Shown piece after piece: positions 40 to 61,079 of a stretch of DNA of 64,000 bases. Source of the stretch: Norana najaformis. Its lineage: Eukaryota > Annelida > Clitellata > Crassiclitellata > Hormogastridae. The DNA lies in NCBI GenBank assembly GCA_964023275.1, contig OZ029917.1, forward strand, positions 27,966,505 through 28,030,504, written 5' to 3'. The stretch's first letter is position 1; every line of letters begins with the position of its first letter. Under the pieces are notes generated by a model. It was not told the DNA's origin. It did no database searches and saw only the letters and a list, made by a program, of their open reading frames with translations. The translations under genes were made by a program, and so were the position numbers.

Positions 40-410
40 TTTCAGCCCTGGATGAAACCATGAGAAAGCACAGTATAAATCCACAGAGAGTCTACAATAC
101 GAATGAGTCTGGATTGATTACGGCGCAAAAGACTCAGAAAATACTAGCATCGAGAGGGAAGAAACAAGTTTGAGCAGTGGCCAGTGCGGTGAGAGGTGTA
201 CTTTGTACCGGTGTATGCTGTTTGGGAGCAATAGAATCTTTCATTCCACCTTGTGTTGGAGACTGAATCAACCGATGTGGCTCACCGTCGTAGCAGAACA
301 TCAAAGTTAATAGCAGGCCATAGCTGCATGAAAACTCAACCAACATGTCAGGCTAAGCGTCATATGAAACCTTCAAAGGTCATCTCACAAACTAATAACA
401 TGTTGAAGTC
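40..410 (+). pseudogene. decayed pogo/Tigger-like transposase fragment
   Basis: The + strand reads ALDETMRKHSINPQRVYN, then TNESGL and KILASRGKKQV. This is the region of pogo/jerky-type DDE transposases that normally carries the N-x-D-E-(S/T)-G motif. The catalytic Asp appears replaced by Asn (TNESG), and stops follow shortly after. The fragment is cut by the window edge, so its 5' part is unseen. It is a transposon fossil, not a host gene. Confidence 0.6.
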
Positions 411-449
411 AACAAGCGTCGCGTGTTTCTGAATTGTTGCAAATAAATG

Positions 450-1000
450 CCACTGTTCTGCTTGTCCCGAGTTGTCATTGTAAAATTGTCATGTCATGGT
501 GAAATGTAAAATTCTTGACAATGTACTTCCTAATTTGTGTTGTGATTGCAGCAGCTGTTTAGTCACAGAACCTCTCAAAACTTTTTAAACCTATACCTCG
601 GACGTAATAATTTTGATTTTACTATAAAAAATAACTGGTAGGCTTAACATTTCAATTTAAGTCTTATAGACCTAAATTTGATCATAAATGTGTATGGGTG
701 GCCCAAAATGACATAGACCTAGAATTTATAGAAAACTGCAGGTTTACCCTATTTGTTGTATTTTTATTAACATTCAGACCACTTCATCATGTAAGTACAT
801 TATGTGTCTACTGAACCGTATTGCTAAATCCTACATGTGCCATTAATATTATGCTAAACTTGGAAAAATCCTTAGGTATGTCATTTTGGGCCTCTTTCCC
901 CTATAGCTTTTCCTTTCGCGATCAGGTATCAATCTGATTGAGTTTTTTGTGCGTTTTCTGTTGTTTGAACTGCACTTGTGGTTTTTCCTCATCATTCGTT
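450..1000. other. non-coding spacer, nothing recognised
   Basis: This AT-rich stretch lies between the two pogo-like fragments. I see no open frame with recognisable motifs, no RNA gene and no clear repeat. It may contain untranslated parts of the flanking transposons. Confidence 0.4.
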
Positions 1001-1119
1001 GCCTGTTTAAGTTGTCTTCGAGTTTTCTTTTGTAGTTTGGATTCTAAAAGAGTTCTCTTAAATGGTGATGCTGTCAGCACAGTTGCACTAGACTTGGTCT
1101 TTTCCTGGTTCTTGCCTTG

Positions 1120-2700
1120 TCATCATAAACCTTTTGTGCAATGGTCATAAACACCTATTCTGACACCAGGAGTTTGTGTAACGTCGATGTCTGCTAATAA
1201 AATTACTGCCGTTGAATGATTAGACGACAAAGCGGAAGGATTCACATATTCCATTGTGCTAGGTTTACTGGGTGGTACAATTATTTTGGTTGACCGATCG
1301 TGCGATGATGTTGAAGGCTTCGCAGTCTCTATCATGCTAGATTCTCTCGGTGATAGAACTGTTGCAGATGACTGATCAGGCAGTAAAGTAGAATGGCTCG
1401 CAACCTCTATTATGCTAGATGCACTGGGCAGTAAACAGATGTCGCTAACTGATCATAGAATAAAGTGAAAGGATTCACTGCTACTTTCGTGCTAGATGTG
1501 ATTATCAGTTTAAGTGCGTCTGTATCCAAGCTACTTGATGACCCTCGGCTTGAAAAAGTTTTCTCAGTGACATCAGATGGAGCGATTTCACAGTCTTGGA
1601 TTGTTGTAAGGTCAACTGGCCAGAGTCCGGTTTTTCTAAAACCATTAACTGATAAAACCATTAACTAGTACTTGCTGCTCGGCCATACGATTCTCCAAAC
1701 AATCTGCATATCTGAAAAATCTGTGACTGCCCTTCCTGGATTGGTTCTCATCCAAGTATCAACTTGTTGTGAATAATAAATACTTGTGGTCAAAAGAAGG
1801 TCAAATCTAATGGCTGTAGACGATGAGCAGTAAGTGGGTGGTACGGAAAGCGTTATCAACTTCCGATGCCTTCTGCAATGAAGCAATGCTATGAGTAGGC
1901 TATGTGTAACATGGCCGTCTAAAATCAGAGGAATCTTTTTTCAAGAGTTGGCTTAGATTCAGAAATAAAATGGTCCAACCATGATACAAACAATTCAGTT
2001 GGATTCAAGCCATGTTCTGTTAACAGCAAATATGGACTCTGCTCCATCAGTTATTTCAGCTTTCATTGGCTTTCTAAGGAAAATAGAAAGCGGCGGGATT
2101 TATCACCCAGCAACACTGACACAGCATACAACTGTGGCATTCTTTCCTCTTTCAGAAGTTAATGGAACCTACTTGTTTTCTTGTTTTCCTCTTTTGGCTA
2201 AAATCTTCTGAGACCTCTGAATGGCGCTAAAACCACTTTCATCCATATTATAGAGCCTCTCTGCTACAACTACATTTCAGTTACAATTTTTTCATGAAGG
2301 TCAAAGAATTGATATACTGTAGCTTTGTTGAACCCGGCGGCTCTTGGCAGAAAGGTTGGTTCTGCAGTACGCAGACTTTTACTTGGGTGGCGCTTTAGAA
2401 AACCCTTCAATCATTCTTGTCCAACCATTTACTTTGCCGAATTAAATCGAATTGGAATCTTATTGATTCCTGCAATTTGGAATGCTAGCTTCCTCAGTGA
2501 AGTAGTTTCAACCCATAAAATCGCTCTCCCATTGAAAGAATGCGCTGTTCATCTTCTTCTTCAGCATCCACTGGTAATCGCACGACCTCCCAAAAAATTT
2601 ATGAGATCCAACTGCCAACTTATTTTCCCGTCAAGCCTCCATTATAGCGTTGCTTCTGGCACTCCAGCTCTCTTTCTTGCAGCTTACTGCAGCCTCGAAT
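1120..2700 (-). pseudogene. decayed pogo-like transposase, second copy in opposite orientation
   Basis: Reading the minus strand from about 2700 downwards gives, in several frames, the order expected of a pogo/Tigger transposase. First come a GKVNGWTRMIEGF stretch and an AAGFNKATVYQFFDL-like stretch from the DNA-binding half, then YNMDESGFSAIQ around the catalytic DE motif near 2230. A QQVDTWMRTNPGRAVTDF segment lies near 1700-1760, and a C-terminal GFRKTGLWPVDL segment at about 1590-1640. Many frameshifts and stops separate these pieces. It faces the similar fragment at the left window edge, so the two are separate insertions or an inverted pair. Confidence 0.65.
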
Positions 2701-3348
2701 GACTTTTAAAAGTAGGCCTGTCTCCAAATGCCATATTTAATATTTATTACAAGAAAATACATTTCACAAATGTGCACAGTCAGCACTTTATATATATATA
2801 TATAATATATATATATTGTATAGATATTGTTGCAGTGGCACGTTTGTGAGTGAATGCCAGAATGCTGTCTGTGAGTGCCACGTGCGACAGATGTTGTAGA
2901 GTGGGAGTGTCAGTTGTATGGCGAAAGCAGCTCCAACCTTTAAACAGGTGTGTGCGTGATATTGAGGCAGTCCGGCTTTTGGATTTCGACCTTGACTGTT
3001 TTGATGTGTGGGTCTTTGTCGCGTTGTTTGCCGGATTCATGATATGTCGTTGAAGCTGGCTTCCAGAAATGGGTGAATTGTTATCTTTTTGAAGATAATG
3101 TCTGTTGAACACTTCTCCCGTTGAGATTCTGCCGTTCGTTTGGCCGCCGTAGTCGTTTTACGTGTACACTTGAGTTTTATTTTTGCTTGTAAATAGACTG
3201 GAAATTTATTGCCATTTAACTACGTCTGGTGTTCCTTTTCTGCCCTTGGACAACCTGCAATGTCGATTTCACCATAACTTTTATTATGCAAACCATTATG
3301 CAGGCCTTATAACTATTGTCTTTTATTAGGCAAACTATATATAGGCCT

Positions 3349-3522
<174 letters not shown>

Positions 3523-3559
3523 ATTCCTTCGCTTCTCATTATCTAGTTTGCCGCTTCAA

Positions 3560-3745
3560 ATCCAAACACAATCCACGGCAATGTCTGACTATCTGCCTGC
3601 CTTCCTGATTCTTGGATCTTAACCTGGAACCCAATCCTTCCTGCCTATCAAATTTGTTTGGTTGAGCGCCTGAGAATAAGCTGATCTTCGCTATTTAGCT
3701 CTCACTAGACCCTGTAGAAATTTCGAGCTTACAAGTTCGATTAGA
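3560..3745 (+). mobile_element. 3' end of an L2-group LINE, truncated copy 1
   Basis: This stretch matches, base for base with scattered changes, the 3' untranslated end of the longer LINE at 57560-57735: the CTTGGATCTTAACCTGGA stretch, a GAGCGCCTGAGAATAAGCTG stretch and a CTGTAGAAATTTCGAG stretch. It is severely 5'-truncated, as is normal for target-primed reverse transcription. Confidence 0.7.
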
Positions 3746-4239
3746 GTGAAAGAGCACTAGCCCAAATAAGGACCTGCTTGAACGTGATAGGCCACAGTTT
3801 GTTTATATTAAAATTTCAATAAATTATATATATATATATATGTGCAAAAGTAATGACAATATTATTTGTCAAACTCGACGAATTACTGGAAAGAGTACTC
3901 GATTCTAAAAATACTCGATAGCGACACTTTAAGTCATGTGTATCAGCTGTGCACTCTCTTTAATGCTTACAGGGCAATCAAGACTGTTTATCAATTCACC
4001 TGGGAAAAGCAGAATCTTTGGGGCAACAAAATGGTCGCCGGAAGTTTTGCTATCGACGAGAGATTTAATCGTGTTAAGTCCACGTAGAAGAAAACAACTT
4101 GCGAGTAGATATAAAATATTGTTAGTCGTTTATTTGTCTATAAATGTAATAATTAGACGAGTGTTCTGGTTAAAGAACGATTGTATTCAGTGTTTCCTAT
4201 CGGTTATGGTTCTCAGACCGTCATTTAGTTTTTTCGTAG

Positions 4240-4590
4240 TGCATTATTTCGTGTTTAGCTTTCTGGAGGTTCTACACTTCTCGATCGCCCTACTTAACAC
4301 TTCACGCCTTGCAGTCTCTGCGCATGTCTTTCACTGAAAACTGAAAACACTCCTCTTCCACAAATCCTATTCCGATTCTTCCTCTTTCTCTTATCTCTCT
4401 TTCCGCTCCAGTTCCAAACACTATCCACCGTAGCGGTTTGACTTTGCCTGCTTGACTCTTGGATCTTGACTGAGCACCGAACCCGACCTGCCTATAGATT
4501 TTGTTTTGACTGAGCCTCTGTGAATAAACTGGTTCCCGTGACTTAGCTTTTATTGGACACGGTAGCAATTGCGAGTTTACTATTACGATT
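4240..4590 (+). mobile_element. 3' end of an L2-group LINE, truncated copy 2
   Basis: The left part encodes the C-terminal end of the LINE reverse-transcriptase ORF (LAVSAHVFH, then KLKTLLFHKSYSDSS), matching the same segment of the element at 58846-59562. The conserved 3' UTR follows, with a short TTACGATTAAG tail. The copy is 5'-truncated. Confidence 0.75.
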
Positions 4591-4599
4591 AAGATAACA

Positions 4600-5286
4600 A
4601 TTTAGCCACCCCATACTTTGAGAGAAATCAGAGAACTGCAAGCTACCAGAAGAATTCAAATAAATAAATGAGTCATCCGTGAGTGCCACAGCAACATGCG
4701 CAGCGCAATAAAAACTGTTGAATTACACTCCCGAGTATCATGTTACTAAATTGCTCCAGTCTTTTCAATCCTTTCAAAAGAAATTGCTGCCATGGTATAT
4801 CCTATGGATAGAGTGCTTATTTTATCTGGAGAAGTTAAAAGGCGCCATTTTCATGCATTCTGCTGTTGTGCGTCAAAGTAACTTCATAGATCCGAATGAT
4901 ATTGTAGTACAGAATGTGGAAAATGTGTGGATACGTGCAAGACGCAAATTGAAAAGACAGTTTGGCACAAGTTCAGGTAGCTTGCAGCACTCTAATTTCT
5001 CTCGCAGTAAATTTGCCATGACTGTTCATAATTAAGTATGTTGATGGAACAAAAGAATTAGTAATGTATACAAAATTCAGTTGTGGAACCATCATCTGAA
5101 TTTGCCTTCCTTCTGATCTCTGCTCTTGGGGCTAATCTGACCTCTGGTGCTACTTGCCATGTCTTCACTTCAGCTGGAAGGTTTCTGTTTTGCAGGTGCT
5201 ATGTATTAAATACTAATTATTGAACACTGCTTAGAGTTGCATGAATTGCTGTAACTGTTCTTTTGTCTGTTTCTGTTGTTCATTAG
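4600..5286. other. region upstream of the golgin first coding exon
   Basis: The stretch ends in CATTAG directly before the exon that carries the golgin ATG, so it could be an intron following an untranslated exon. At 4607-4680 there is a short segment (GCCACCCCA, CAGAGAAC, GCAAGCT, then AAATAAATAAATGAG) that recurs near 55425-55490, probably a small repeat. No promoter motif can be assigned with confidence. Confidence 0.35.
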
Positions 5287-5294
5287 GTCCCAAC

Positions 5295-5339
5295 ATGTGG
5301 GAACGGTTCTCTAATTTGGCTTCTGTCGTCACGGGTCAG
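5295..5339 (+). CDS. GOLGB1: golgin exon 1 (start codon)
   Basis: It encodes residues 1-15, MWERFSNLASVVTGQ, and ends at phase 0 on CAG|GTGAGA. The exon may begin at 5287 after CATTAG. Giantin starts with a similar short amphipathic stretch (Met-x-x-Arg-x-Ser-x-Leu-Ala), which is why I chose this ATG rather than any in the next exon. Confidence 0.75.
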
Positions 5340-8300
5340 GTGAGATCTCTCTGTGTACTGCTTTCACTAAATTAAATACACCGTTAAATTTGTTTTTTAA
5401 CAATTCTACAACTGATGTTTCTTATTAATCTCTCCAATATGTAGCTGAGTTTTTGTAGCATCTGCATTTATCTTTTGATGCACTGCACGCTGATCACTGA
5501 CAACAGATCTGTCGAGATCTTGCCCGAGCCCTTGTCTGTCAGTTGTGTTGAAGGTGGAGAATGATCCCAGGGAGTCAGTTAACAACAGCATGAAACCTGT
5601 ACACAGTGCCAATATAGAGTCATTTGGAAAACTCAGAAATGGCCGTAATTGGTGTGCAGATGATTTTGTTTTGTGGGCTCAGATATAAACAATAACACTG
5701 GCCAACAGAAAAAATTTTTTTTCTTGTTGCCTTCGGTTTTAGACCTGTTCTTGGGGTAATTTTGGGCGCTGATTCAGAAAATGTCATTGGATTGAGTGCA
5801 TCAGGTCTAGTTTCTCAGATATCGTCGATTTTGTAAAGAAAACCCAGTCCACTCTTTAAACAATGTCTTTGACAAAACTTAAATGTCATAATAAGCTTTA
5901 TTTATGGCTAATTATAATTCTTGCTGATTCATATAATGCCTACATCCTTATAATGTAAAATCAGCATATCTTGCCGCGTGCTGAGATATTGCTGATTCAA
6001 CGAAATAACTATTCCGTAGCCTACAGCTTACTCAGCACTAAATTCATGGCCTCATTTAGAATTTATTTGTGCTTATACAGCGTTTCATGGTTTCGAACTA
6101 TGTAAATAGATTACGCTGAAGTCAGCATTTATAGCCTATATAAACCGCCTCCTGAAAGCTAGAGCAGCCGCAGTCGTCTTAGGGCATATTAAGAGTTGGT
6201 CGCAAGAACAATCTGTGAATGTGAACATTAAATAACTACATGTTCTTACTATTTTTTAGGTTAGTCACTTAATTCCTCAGATGTGAACATCCTTAAGGTT
6301 ATGGCTACTTCCAGACGGAGCTGCATTAACCATCCAGACATATTCTGCTACATTTGTGGGGAATACACACTAAAAGCAAACAGGAAAGCGATTTCTGAGT
6401 TTGTAAAAAGAGCATATGTATGTTATTTTGGTGTCAAACTTGGAGATCAAGATAAGCAATGGGCTCCTCATACAGTATGCAAAACTTGTATTGAACAATT
6501 GCGCCACTGGACAACTGGAAAGAGAAGCTGCCTGAAATTTGGTGTACCGATGGTTTGGAGGGAACAGATAAACCACTTCGACGACTGTTACTTTTGTATG
6601 GTTAATATCATAGGCATCAATCGAAATAATCGTCACAAGTTGTCTTACCCTGATATACCTTCAGCCAGGAGACCTGTTCCGCATTCGGATATTGTACCAG
6701 TTCCACCTTTTCGCGAACTACCTCAGCTCTCAGACGATGAGACTTGCATGTCCAATATCGGACAAGATGACGAAAGTGAAGAAAGTGGGGGCAGTGACAG
6801 TGATTTCCAATCAACTTCACACAGTGAACGTTTTGACCAAAAAGAGTTGAGTGATCTGATCAGGGACTTAAATCTTTCCAAAGAGTCCTCTGAATGCTTG
6901 CGTCCAGACTAAAGGAAAAGAATGCACTTCAGCCTGGAACGAAAATTACAATTTATAGAAACAGAGAAAAGGATTTGCTGCCATTCTTTACCGAAGACAA
7001 CAACCTAGTATTCTGTAATGACATCAGCAACGTTTTGAAGAAAATTGGTCTGTCGGATTACAGCCCAGATGAGTGGCGTCTTTTTATCGACAGTTCAAAA
7101 CGTAGTCTGAAATGTGTGCTTTTAAATAACGGCAACAAATTTGGTTCTATTCCAATCGGTCACTCCACCAGGATGAAAGAAGAGTACAATGCCATCTCTT
7201 TAGTACTGGAAAAGATAAAATACAAAGAACATCAATGGGTAATTTGTGTAGACTTGAAGATGGTAAATTTCCTCCTTGGTCAACAAAGTGGCTACACAAA
7301 GTATCCCTGCTTTTTGTGTCTTTGGGACAGTAGAGCCAAGCATGAACATTGGACAAGAAAAGATTGGCCTTCGAGGAAAGACATGGTGGTTGGAGCTCAA
7401 AATGTAATCAAGGAATCTTTGGTGGCACGAGATAGGATCATACTGCCACCACTACACATAAAGCTAGGCCTGATGAAACAATTTGTCAGGGCTTTGAATA
7501 AAGAAGGTTCATGCTTCGAATACATAGTACACAAGTTACCAGGAATTACAATGGAAAAATTGAAGGCTGGAATCTTCGATGGTCCACAGATCAGGCAACT
7601 TATGAATGACCCACTTTTCATACCATCAATGAATGAAATCGAATCTTGTGCCTGGTCTTCCTTTGTTCTTGTAACTAAAAATTTTCTTGGCAACAAGAAG
7701 GCAGACAATTATGCACAACTAGTAGAGGATATGCTTCTTCATTTCAACAAGCTTGGCTGCAACATGAGCATTAAAGTCCATTATCTCCACAGTCACTTAG
7801 ATCGCTTTTCAGAGAATCTTGGTGACTTCAGCGAAGAGCAAGGTGAAAGATTTCACCAAGACATCAAAACAATGGAAAATCGATATCAAGGAAGATGGGA
7901 TGCATACATGATGGCAGACTATTGCTGGAATATTATGCGCGATTGTTCCGGCAGATGCCACACTCGGAAATCGTACAAAAGGAGCTTCTTCGATGTCGAA
8001 TGACTTGAAATTTTTATAACAAACTTGTTCTGTTTGGTATCATATAAGTACAGTTTCAGGTACTACCATTTTCTTTTAAGTATTTGTATTATTATGTTTA
8101 TTTAGTGTATCACATAATAAATTGAGCACTACATAATTATAGCTATAGCCTTATGTTTTATGGGTGAGCAGAGGCAAGGACTGGTATATGGCATAATGTT
8201 CTATATCTCGAAAACTAGACCTGCTGGGAGAAAACTGGTGCCTTTTCTGGAATCAGCAGGTCAAATATACCCAGAAACAGTTCTAACATTTGAGGCAACA

Positions 8301-11300
8301 AATTATGTGTTGGCCAGTGTAATGAATCATTTTCCATTGATGAAGGGGTCAGTAGTTCTGACTGTTGCTGATCTTTGTAACTACCATGGTGCATTTGTCG
8401 AGGGTGCGGTTACCATGGTAAGCATTTGGGTGCCGTGTGCTGACCTTATTGTCCTCTTGAAAAAATTTGATCTAGCAAGGAGTGCTGTGATTAGTGCAGG
8501 ACTAGCATGTGAGCATTTGTTTTGAATTTTGTAGGTCTAATGATGCCTTCAGTTTGTCATATTCATGATTGTGGCAGATTGTAAACTTAATAAGAAGGTA
8601 TGTCTTTGGCTGATTGAATGCTGATTTGATTGTTTCATAGCATGTTTTTGCAATACAGGATGATGAGCCAACTGCTTCTGGCCCTGCTGCAGCTGACCAG
8701 GTGGCAAAAGGTAATGATCCCAGTGACCTTCAGATTGAGATGATGGAACAGGAGCGACTGATTATTCAACTCAAGGAAATGATTCGAGAACGAGACAAGA
8801 CTCTTACAGACAAAGATAATGAACTGAAGGTGACCATATTGTTTTAATTGCCTAACTGGTTTTTTGGTGGATTCATCAAGGCTGTGTCTAAGATGACTGA
8901 GGATCCCCTTTGTTTTATTATTTAATGACCTGTAAATCGATGTAATGTAAAACAACTGGTATGGTATTTTTCAGATGCTGAAAAAACAATTATTAAACTG
9001 CTAAAATCAGTTGTGAGTGCTGTTGTACTGCCAGACTTGTCAGCTGAATGGGAATCATGACTATATCACCCTGGCATTTCAATCCCTTCAGTGGCTGCAG
9101 AGTGAAATATAAGCTCTGCCTGCTTGTGCATGTGGCAAGCAACCCACAACTTTTGTCACAGAATGAGCCTTTCATCTCACGGCTTACTGCATTTCATGAG
9201 TGGTCATGGAAACCAACTGCCACAATGAAATTAAAACTGGCAAACAGTGTCTCATCTGCCAGTCTGACTGCCTGAAACTCATTATCACCAGTGCTGCTAG
9301 AGCTGACTGACAGAGGAACCCTTCAATTTAAGTCATCTACTGAATGTGTTTGAATTATTTTCAAACTGTTGAAGGTGTTGTGCATGGTTGACCTGCATCT
9401 CAGAATGTCTTATTTAGCATTTTATGAGAAAATAAATTTTTCGACTTTCTTGTTTTATTTATAAGTAAACATATTTGCTGAACATGCATTATGGCAAGTC
9501 TTTGACTCAAGTTTATTTAGTAAGAAGGCCCTTTTGTGCCTGAAGAACAAGTATTGGATTTGAGCTTTCCTATGTGAAAAGTCTCTACCCTATGCTTGGT
9601 GTGAGATGTCTCATGCAGTGATGGGGCAAGATGGACCCTGAGATTCATCTTGCCTCGTTTGTGTGAATCCTAAATGTGGATAAAAATTTCTCACAGCGCA
9701 ATAAATTGAATCAGAGGTGTTGTTAACAGGATTAATGCATTAAAATGTTAATGCAATTAAAATTTTTAACGCAATTTTCTTTAATGCAGTCATGAAATCT
9801 TGCACTAAATGAATTGTATAAAATGTGGTAAAGGAATCGCCAGTGCTCTTATCCTGTGCAACTTTTCTTTTACTGCAACAGTCAAATGTTTAACAAGTGG
9901 AGAATTTCATTGTTAAAATAAATTTTAGAATTATCTGACAGTGTATGGATGAAAAATGTATGGATGGACAGTTCCTTCTAACAACAAATCTATGGCCTGT
10001 GTAAGTGTCGCAGGAAAGAATTTAAGCATCGCCACACTTCAGTTTCATCTAAAAATAAGCAGTTGTTTGCCCTAGTTTATTCTGTTCTTAAATCTGAAAT
10101 GTTGCCAAATGAGCCATTCAGAAGAAGATGTGCCTGTTAAATTACAAACTTGAATGATGAAGGTGTACCATTATGCTGAAATATTGCAATACAAATCGGA
10201 ACTTGTACATGCAAAGTAACATTTTGGGCTGGTAAAAGTGCCATACTTTGGTGTATCTTTATCCTTATTCACCAGATAGTATCTCTGATGAAAGATCTCG
10301 CCTGATAAATTCACAGAAAATTGAGGAGGTCTAGGACATACTGTAGCTTTATAAACTGGGTACATTTATGGTTACATTTTTCTCAGAGCACCTGCTACAA
10401 CAATGCCATGTGAGCATTTGCTTTCTGTGGCTGACCATTATATTAAAAAAGGTAGTGACTGTTACACTGGAAATGTCAATGACACTTGTTTGAAAATCAA
10501 GTAGAACTTATGGAAACTTCTGAACTGCAAGACATTCTTAAATTTTTTAGCATGGTTTTAAAATACATTATAAAATTGCAAGCAGTTTTGCCAAATTTAT
10601 AATTATACCCAGATTTGGTATTATATTTATTTTACATATGTATAATTTAATTAAGTTACTCAAAAATATCAGTTGTACAGCACACTGAAATTTTCTAATT
10701 AAATTTAATTCATCCATGTTTTCTGCAATTAATCAGATGGGCATTAGCTGCAAAGTTGACTGACCTATTAGTTAATGAAATTTTTATGACATAAGTGCTG
10801 TTACTGTATTTTCAGAAACTTTCGGCTCAATATTCAAAACACAGACTTCAGTCCAAGTCTAAAATTGCCAGCCTTACGTCTCATCTTGACCAGTCACAGA
10901 AATCAATGTCTGAGTCAATGGAATCAGTAAGTCTTTTCAGTTCCTGTAATGATTTTATTTGTTTATAATTGTTATTAACTTTACCAGTACCATTTTACTT
11001 TATGGAATAATTTTTTTGTTAATTTTTGTGGACATATAGCTGACATTGAGGTATAAAAAGCAACAGAGTTTTAAAGTTGGAAGGCTGATGGAAGCTGCAG
11101 AGTAAGTGTTTTAAAGATGGCATCATCATACCAATGCCTGAGGAAATGCACATATTGGAGAGGCTTCATCCTGCTGCAACAGTCGTGGGTACTGGGCTGT
11201 CCGTAACATCATATGAGAGATGTTACAGACAAGGATTAAACAGCAACAGGCAGGTTTCAGTCCAAGAAAATCCTGTTGTGAGCAAATCGTGATACAGAGA

Positions 11301-58230: not shown

Positions 58231-58710
58231 AAAGAACAGACCGCTCCATATGCTTGTTGTTCCAGGGCAGAACACTGTGGCACATAAACCACTTGTCGAA
58301 ACAAGAAGGATATTTTTTGCCTCCTATTTAAATAAAACTCGAACTGATGAGAAATTTTACGAAAGCGATGAATAGTGAAAGCGAAGGATTTCGACATGTG
58401 AGAACGGTATTTCCAAGAATAACTGACGCCAAGATTAAAGGAATGCATTTTTGTTGGTCCACAAATCAGACACGTCATCAATGACAGAGCGGTTCGAAGA
58501 TCTGCTAATGGGGCCAGATAAAATCGCATGGGACGCACTTAAGGATGGTGTTGAGAATTTTCTTGTCAACTACAGTGCAACATACTACATCTAGCTGGTT
58601 GAAAACCTGCTTCAAGCATACAAATCCATAAGTGCAACGTGTCGCTGAAGATTCATTTTCTATACTCACACTTGGACTTCTTTCCTGCTAATCTTGATGC
58701 AGTCAATGAC

Positions 58711-60711
58711 GAATCGTAATCGTAATCTCAAGATTTCTACAGCGCCCAACGATAGCTAAGTCGTGGGAACCAGCTTGTTCACAGTGCTTAGTCAAAATAA
58801 AATCGATAGGGGAAAGAGTTCGGTTCCAGGTCAAAATCCAGGGAGTCAGACAGGCAGACAGTTGGATGGCTGCGGTGGATGGTGCTTGAAATTGAAGTGA
58901 GAAGACAGATAAGGGGAAAACAAAGAATTAGGGTAAGATTTTTGGAGAAGTAATGTTTTCAGTTTTGAGTGAAAGACCAGTGCAGAAATTGCAAGAGGTG
59001 AAGTATTGGCGAGTTCGTATGATGGATCAGATAACTGTCGTAATTCTGGCGGGAGTTTATTCCACAGGGGTGCAGCAGCAACGGCTATTGGGCCATTAGG
59101 TCTACCAGATGTTAAGGATGAGGTGATTGGAGGGCAAATAAGAGTTAGGACAGAAGAGGATCGGGTTGAACAGAGTAGTTGGATTGTAAATAACTTACGA
59201 AGATAGGAGGGTTGGAAAGATTGAAGTGTGTTGTATGCAAGGGATAGGACTTTGTACTTTATTCGTTCAGGTATTTTAAGCCAGGGAAGTGATTTGAGAA
59301 CAGGAGTTATGTGATGGTGTTTGGGAATTTTGGTGACAGCACGGGAAAGAGGATTTTGGATAGCTTGAAGGCGGTTCATTTGAGTGCTATCTATATTGAG
59401 GAAAAGTGAATTGCAGTATTCTAGTTTTAAATGGGCTATGGATGTGGCAATAGTTTTGAAGTCAAACATAGGGTGGATTCTGCGAATGTCGCGGATACGC
59501 ATGAAGCAAGAGCGGGAAAGATGGGTGACATGATAAGCAGAGCCGACCCTAGGCATAGGCAAGCAGGCAATTGCCTGAAGCGCTACAATTTAGGAGCGCC
59601 ATTTCCCCCAAAAAGTTATGTTTTATGCTTTTATGTTATCCAATCATTCTTTCAATGATTTTTCATTTGAATTCAAAAATGTTCTTAACCACAATCTGGC
59701 CATGATATCAGCCTATTTAATCACTAATGAAACTGTGACTGAAGGACTTGCTCAAGGTCCTCACAGTAACCGCCTACCATAGCATGTCTCGCGAAACGCG
59801 AGACGAATAAGGACAGGTGGCCTGTGTTGCACTCGACCAGTGCCGGTGTTAGATGTCTGGTCAAGGCTATGAGACCGGGCGATTGCTGGAGATGAATCCG
59901 ATGCCAGAGCAGCCAGATTCCGTGTACATCGGGGCTAGTTTCCGTCGGTGCTCGGGTCTGCAGCTTCGGGCTGTCCAAGTGTCTGTCTGGTAATTATTGA
60001 GTCAATATGGGTACCAACGCACCGGTCCAAAGTTGGCCCAAGGGTGCGCTATCGTACGCGGGCAGCAGGCTGAGTAGAGTGTACGTTGTACGCTTCAAGT
60101 TATCGTTTATAGGCATCTTCTACGCACCGATGGAACAAAACTGTGTGGCACGAGAAAAACGAAGAAAAACACGTTCACCAGAGTAAAACACGCGACTGAC
60201 TGCGGGAAATACGCTAGTTAGGCCTATTCGTATTTTTATACTTTTTGCAGTTAAATTTATAACTTTCTATTATCGATAGAAACTATTCAGAATGATTTCT
60301 CCGATTACATTAACAAATAATTTGGAAACAGGCCTATTTTGAGCATAGCTTGTTTTGCAAGAGTTAAGAAGTAATAAGTCACGTATCGGCCCTCAGATTT
60401 TCAGTGTTTTGGATAGTATAATTAAAATCTAAACATGCTTGTAATTAGGTGGGGTGGGGGCGCTAAAATATATACTTTGCCTGGAGCTTCACTGAGGCGA
60501 AGGCCCGCCCTGATGATCAGAAAAGGTGACGTTTTGGTCGAATATTAGGCCTACACCTAAATTGCGGACAAAAGTGTTGGTATTAAAGGTGTGGGTGGAG
60601 GCAGAGTCCAGGCTGAGGGAGATATAAGGGTTAGGAATTTTGTTAAACTGGTCGCGTAGACCAATAAGTATAAATTCAGTTTTAGATGGATTCAGGCACA
60701 AGAGATTAATT
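58711..60711 (-). mobile_element. L2-group LINE (TTACGA family) inserted into the decayed transposon
   Basis: The minus strand starts at about 60705 with LCLNPSKTEFILIGLRDQ and LGVGLIFDQNVTFSDH. It is interrupted by a hAT-type element, then continues VTHLSRSCFMRIRDIRRIHP, HHITPVLKSLPWLKIPERIK and the family 3' UTR, ending in TTACGATTACGA at 58711-58725. Sequence at the two borders (AATGACGAA and AATTGGCGAA) looks like an aged target duplication. Confidence 0.8.
59538..60512. mobile_element. 975-bp non-autonomous hAT element nested in the L2
   Basis: The ends are CAGAGCCGACCCTAGGC on the left and, reversed, CAGGGCGGGCCTTCGCC on the right, typical hAT-like CAG-GC termini. The flanking 8-mers ATGATAAG (59530-59537) and ATGATCAG (60513-60520) differ by one base, consistent with the 8-bp duplication of hAT elements. 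Removal rejoins SDH and VTHL of the LINE. Inside, at 59742-59775, lies a piece of SINE family A. Confidence 0.8.
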
Positions 60712-61079
60712 GGCGAACATGGTGAAAGGTTTCACCAGGACATTGCGATGACGGAACAAGGGTAGGCCTAATTAGAAGTGGTATCGGTGCAATTGGAAGC
60801 CATCAATGCTGGCCGTCTATTTTTGAACACTGAAACGAAAAGCATGAGATGCTGAGTAGGCCTACAAGCGAAAATCAGCAGCAAAACACTTTTAGCTCAT
60901 TTGAATTAATGCAACATATCAGCATAATTGTGCGATTAAACACGTTAGATTCAATAAAATTTAATTTCATGTTTCTCAAATTCCTACGTGATACAGCTAA
61001 TCTGAAGTTATTGCCTATTGTATTCAACTTGAAGTTGTCAGTCACAATTACAAGAAATTTTCAGGAAGCAAAAATTTTG

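Follow-up and report, generated by a model that had tools for sequence, protein, structure and literature searches.

The window analysed here, a 64,000-nucleotide stretch of contig OZ029917.1 of the annelid Norana najaformis, contains an element at positions 5696–8319 that raises the question of whether it represents an undescribed transposon superfamily or a new family of a known kind. In the window sequence, the element is a real terminal inverted repeat (TIR) transposon of 2,624 bp with TAA on both sides. Its features are as follows (residues of the C-terminal part are numbered on the intact 567-aa protein of locus L011):

5693..5695, no strand: left copy of the TAA target duplication, preceded by A, from the sequence
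5696..5840 (inner limit approximate), + strand: 5' terminal inverted repeat, imperfect, with the tip CACTGGCCAACA; this exact end recurs genome-wide
6304..6912, + strand: N-terminal transposase ORF with a Cys/His cluster followed by an acidic linker, broken near its end
6894..8003, + strand: C-terminal ORF with the presumed catalytic domain
8165..8319 (inner limit approximate), − strand: 3' terminal inverted repeat, imperfect, with the tip TGTTGGCCAGTG
8320..8322, no strand: right copy of the TAA target duplication, followed by T, from the sequence

The termini read 5'-CAC ... GTG-3', and the borders, the tips identical over 12 bases, and the TAA duplication are as a first-pass annotation of the window had described them. 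The TIRs of about 120 bp that it reported are present, but their identity is limited to the 12-base tips, past which the imperfect repeats form a gapped match over ~130–150 bases. It had also proposed a single two-domain protein, which holds for the intact copies, whereas the coding region of the window copy consists of two overlapping ORFs in different frames (6304–6912 and 6894–8003) because of a 1-base deletion near position 6890.

We searched the genome (608 Mb, 17 contigs) for further copies, as the first-pass annotation had suggested. A protein search recovered at least 111 transposase copies, all 98–100% identical (111 scored among 5,508 first-look candidates; a lower bound). Counted by eye, 86 of the 111 matches have an open frame that is exactly 579 codons long, and the other 25 have a frame of another length. 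Thirty loci were cut out around transposase matches and examined, of which 20 have both tips intact. An unbroken, single-exon frame of 567 aa from the first ATG is present in 15 of these two-tipped copies, bearing out the earlier reading of a full-length TIR transposon that encodes a two-part protein; the five that lack this frame include the window copy and an identical twin. Exact 5' ends with a base other than G at position −4 occur 543 times genome-wide (304 + 239; backwards-pattern control, 0). Only 14 matches were obtained with the 3'-end query, far below the 5'-end count. Because the 20 two-tipped copies retain their 3' end, this shortfall is probably due to the search skipping common words.

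The mean pairwise difference among 18 two-tipped copies is 0.58% (153 pairs; window copy and twin left out). This low divergence indicates that the burst was recent, and we conclude from these comparisons that the element has recently multiplied in this genome. The window copy and its twin on another contig (C9) are identical across 2,624 bp, including the 1-base deletion, and have different flanks, each with its own TAA duplication; therefore, a broken-frame copy has moved, probably mobilised by enzyme from intact copies. With so many intact copies, the family is possibly active today, and we consider it an evenly balanced proposition that it is still jumping now by means of an intact autonomous Chapaev3 transposase encoded in dozens of copies.

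In one locus (L077, G000:C1:4020000-4029900), at 209–9870, the element 5' end occurs four times in succession, spaced by ~2.3–2.4 kb. The repeat units start with the first ~590–660 bases of the element, one unit is interrupted, and the last is extended into a longer copy with the element 3' end. Here, the end of a transposon has become part of a tandem repeat.

The genome also harbours sister families. A pattern for the C(2)C motif of the transposase, designed to miss the codons usual in this family (family 1), had 116 matches (61 + 55; control, 0). Thirty loci cut from these matches comprise 28 members of a second family (family 2), one copy of family 1 (L047), and one decayed relative (L040). 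The family-2 protein has 562 aa and is 53% identical to that of family 1, and the element ends are CACAGG...CCTGTG. These ends were readable with probes in 16 of the 28 loci, 14 of which have a TWA duplication (all but L039 and L044). The two families differ at 40, 28, and 66% of first, second, and third codon positions, respectively, a pattern as expected if the protein were under selection. A pattern for the GERFHQD motif had 1,094 exact genome matches (531 + 563; control, 0), with one 21-base version in about nine-tenths of the first 100 matches listed, all on contig C1, and the genome seems, by these pattern counts, to carry a heavy load of such transposons. One locus with this version, L071 ("family 3"), carries a frameshift, and both of its pieces are 44–53% identical to families 1 and 2; L072, L073, and L074 are decayed single copies of three other GERFHQD versions. 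The window itself contains a decayed relic of another transposase relative at 58281–58716 (tblastn E about 1e-14) and a second relic stretch at 60715–60759 (weak match, E 0.4–0.7) that reads GERFHQDI. The two pieces lie ~2 kb apart, as if a later insertion had split them.

Among the 20 two-tipped copies of family 1, 16 have a matching 3-base duplication, which is TWA in 15 and ATA in one (L012); it is absent in L023, L026, L031, and L037. TWA is preceded by A and followed by T in 12 of the 16 duplicated copies. Consistent with a 3-bp TWA target between A and T, ATWA precedes 64 of the 100 first-listed 5' ends (of 543), and A is found at −4 in 94 of these 100, in a pattern that had excluded G there. 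The joined flanks of the 16 duplicated copies were then compared with the loci sampled by that point. Those of L016 match all 28 family-2 loci across the junction with 98.0–99.7% identity, one of them (L068) for only part of the query, and TAA is present once at the junction. By this alignment, the family-2 loci are a paralogous empty site for the L016 insertion; the joined flanks of the other 15 copies found no empty site among the sampled loci. L016 is thus an element of this family nested inside a family-2 element, and the nesting gives the order of that pair of insertions.

PIF/Harbinger elements likewise duplicate a 3-base TWA, which is the point of contact with an assignment of this element to that type. 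We dropped this assignment as having negligible probability, as the CAC tips and the C(2)C/LH/H(4)H arrangement of the transposase speak against it and a Pfam search at E up to 10 gave no Harbinger-type DDE profile match. The first-pass annotation had recognised no motifs of hAT, PIF/Harbinger, Tc1/mariner, piggyBac, or P elements, and Pfam agreed, with no hAT, Harbinger, mariner, piggyBac, or P match.

The C-terminal part of the protein carries, in order, FIDSS (D264), IC-x-DLK (D318), PCFLC (C337 and C340), LPPLHIKLG (LH at 385–386), HYLHSH or HFLNSH (H494 and H499), and GERFHQD (E516). C337-x2-C340 is accompanied by H494-x4-H499, and C(2)C, LH, and H(4)H follow each other at 337, 385, and 494 in family 1 and at 326, 373, and 482 in family 2. 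The spacing from D318 to C337 is 19 residues in both families, probably as in RAG1, and that from H499 to E516 is 17. The cysteine of a YVCYFG string is confined to the window copy and its twin; the intact copies examined read YVGYFG, and the commonest base among the 20 copies differs from the window copy at this site.

D264, D318, and E516 are candidates for a catalytic triad, with E516 as a tentative choice of the glutamate. This residue is present in family 2 and in the window relic at 60715, each found independently, while its presence in L071–L074 is uninformative, as these were selected by a pattern that contains it. E512 and E513 are each missing from at least one of L071–L074 and the window relic, several of which are decayed. 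A single-sequence structural model of low confidence (mean pLDDT 35.8) places D264 on a strand within a b-b-b-a-b-a series, whose fourth strand is closely followed by D318, and E516 in a later helix. At this pLDDT, the predicted order of strands and helices is a weak hint of an RNase H order. Of the 763 matches that Foldseek returned for this model (E up to 10), none had E <= 0.001, and a second single-sequence model was likewise of low confidence (mean pLDDT 34.4).

The N-terminal part contains a cluster of C8, C16-x2-C19, H57, C60-x2-C63, H92, and C96-x2-C99 (family 1 numbering) that is invariant between families 1 and 2 and also seen in L071. The three C-x2-C knuckles of the first-pass annotation are indeed found here, but a fourth pair lies in the C-terminal part. 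The label "ZAD-like" that it attached to them did not survive: proteins with a ZAD (zf-AD) resemble this transposase in the multiple C-x2-C pairs of their N-terminal region, but the zf-AD profile reached 18.6 bits on the family-1 protein, below its cut-off of 28, and had no Pfam match in the two sister-family proteins (families 2 and 3). We therefore dropped a ZAD identity. The cluster is more likely, and probably, a Chapa zinc domain, a complex zinc finger reported in Chapaev3, other Chapaevs, and RAG1 (sections drawn on from PMC4411706).

Taken together, these features match a described group. In the parts of PMC4079192 used here, Chapaev3 elements duplicate TWA between a preceding A and a following T and have CAC/GTG ends; C(2)C, LH, and H(4)H are named there as motifs characteristic of Chapaev. 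The element has this target, these termini, and these motifs in this order, although the motifs are at least partly common to a wider group. According to excerpts of PMC12730594, the CACTA-Mirage-Chapaev-Transib group has C(2)C and H(3-4)H between the second D and the E, CA..TG ends, and 2–5 bp duplications throughout, and the legend of a figure on that group names 2 C and 3 H. The CACTA-Transib group as a whole therefore has C(2)C, H(3-4)H, and probably also the histidine of LH, so these features are not specific to Chapaev3. Excerpts of PMC4411706 put Chapaev3 in the Transib superfamily and describe it as distantly related to other Chapaevs. We are highly confident that the element is a Chapaev3-group DNA transposon of the CACTA-Mirage-Chapaev-Transib group, which is also the group of RAG1, the distantly related enzyme responsible for rearranging human antibody genes. 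This assignment is made by diagnostic features and not by alignment or tree. These group-wide characters are equally those of a different CACTA-Mirage-Chapaev-Transib lineage that is not Chapaev3 proper; we consider such a lineage very unlikely, given that the A/T-flanked TWA target and the zinc-type cluster at the N terminus fit Chapaev3 elements as described.

The first-pass annotation had favoured an unclassified superfamily. An undescribed superfamily of its own, with TWA targets and CAC ends acquired by convergence, would account for the Pfam result, in which neither the family-1 protein nor the sister-family proteins matched any transposase profile (E up to 10), and the likeness to Chapaev3 rests on descriptions and not on alignment. 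DUF1280 (PF06918), which PMC3985635 equates with Chapaev in the section drawn on, was likewise absent from the Pfam results (E up to 10) for the family proteins searched. Family profiles run against the PDB recovered no RAG1 or Transib chain, and a PDB sequence search and one of two PDB profile searches had 0 matches. A beta-lactamase chain found by PDB profile, matching in the acidic linker (E 0.098), was taken as chance. However, the flanked target, the ends, the protein size, the three ordered motifs, and the zinc-type cluster are all in line with Chapaev3 as published, which leaves a new superfamily unsupported and highly improbable, and we dropped that reading. The element is a new family of an already described kind, Chapaev3.

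For the Chapaev3 assignment, a mechanism can be proposed in which the N-terminal zinc-type domain probably recognises the element ends, and the transposase most likely binds the inverted repeats and then excises the element. Insertion would take place at A-TWA-T sites, where a 3-base stagger between the cuts would create the TWA duplication. The duplication and the empty site are observed, and the catalysis is inferred. Hairpins of the flanking DNA may form at excision, by analogy with Transib and RAG1.

Relatives were also sought outside this genome. Protein search and alignment found none in IMG/VR, where three patterns hit 2, 0, and 2 loci; tblastn of these four gave no match below E 0.17, and they were taken as chance. 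In GTDB contigs, 59 stretches matched the patterns, none of which was confirmed as a relative. Literal peptide strings of the transposase were not found in the literature searched. The biology of Chapaev transposons was called largely uncharacterized in 2014 (PMC4079192, in the part drawn on), and the literature searched, judged by titles and abstract starts, yielded no activity assay of a Chapaev3 transposase. The many unbroken, near-identical copies would permit direct tests of how this RAG1-like branch cuts and joins DNA, extending to its use of the N-terminal zinc domain. If the family is still jumping, it would provide convenient material for biochemical work on the branch of RAG1-like transposases that has the Chapa domain; apart from that, the element is an ordinary annotation result.

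Compared with known systems, the element differs from Transib/RAG1 in its 3-base duplication, as opposed to 5 bases. It further differs from RAG1 in the gap between the candidates D264 and D318, which is 54 residues versus about 108 between the corresponding D residues of RAG1, and PDB profile searches gave no sequence match to RAG1 chains. It resembles Transib/RAG1 in having C(2)C and H(3-4)H between the second D and the E (PMC12730594, excerpts) and, through its probable Chapa domain, also RAG1, in which this domain is reported as in Chapaev3 (PMC4411706, excerpts). From the Chapaev3 elements Merrow and Garfield, as far as they are described in the parts of PMC4079192 used, it differs in having one exon instead of two, and most other Chapaev3 transposases are single-exon. 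By the same descriptions, it is like Garfield, Merrow, and Conan in its TWA between A and T, its CAC/GTG ends, its C(2)C, LH, and H(4)H motifs, and its similar protein size (556 aa in Garfield_BM versus 567 aa).
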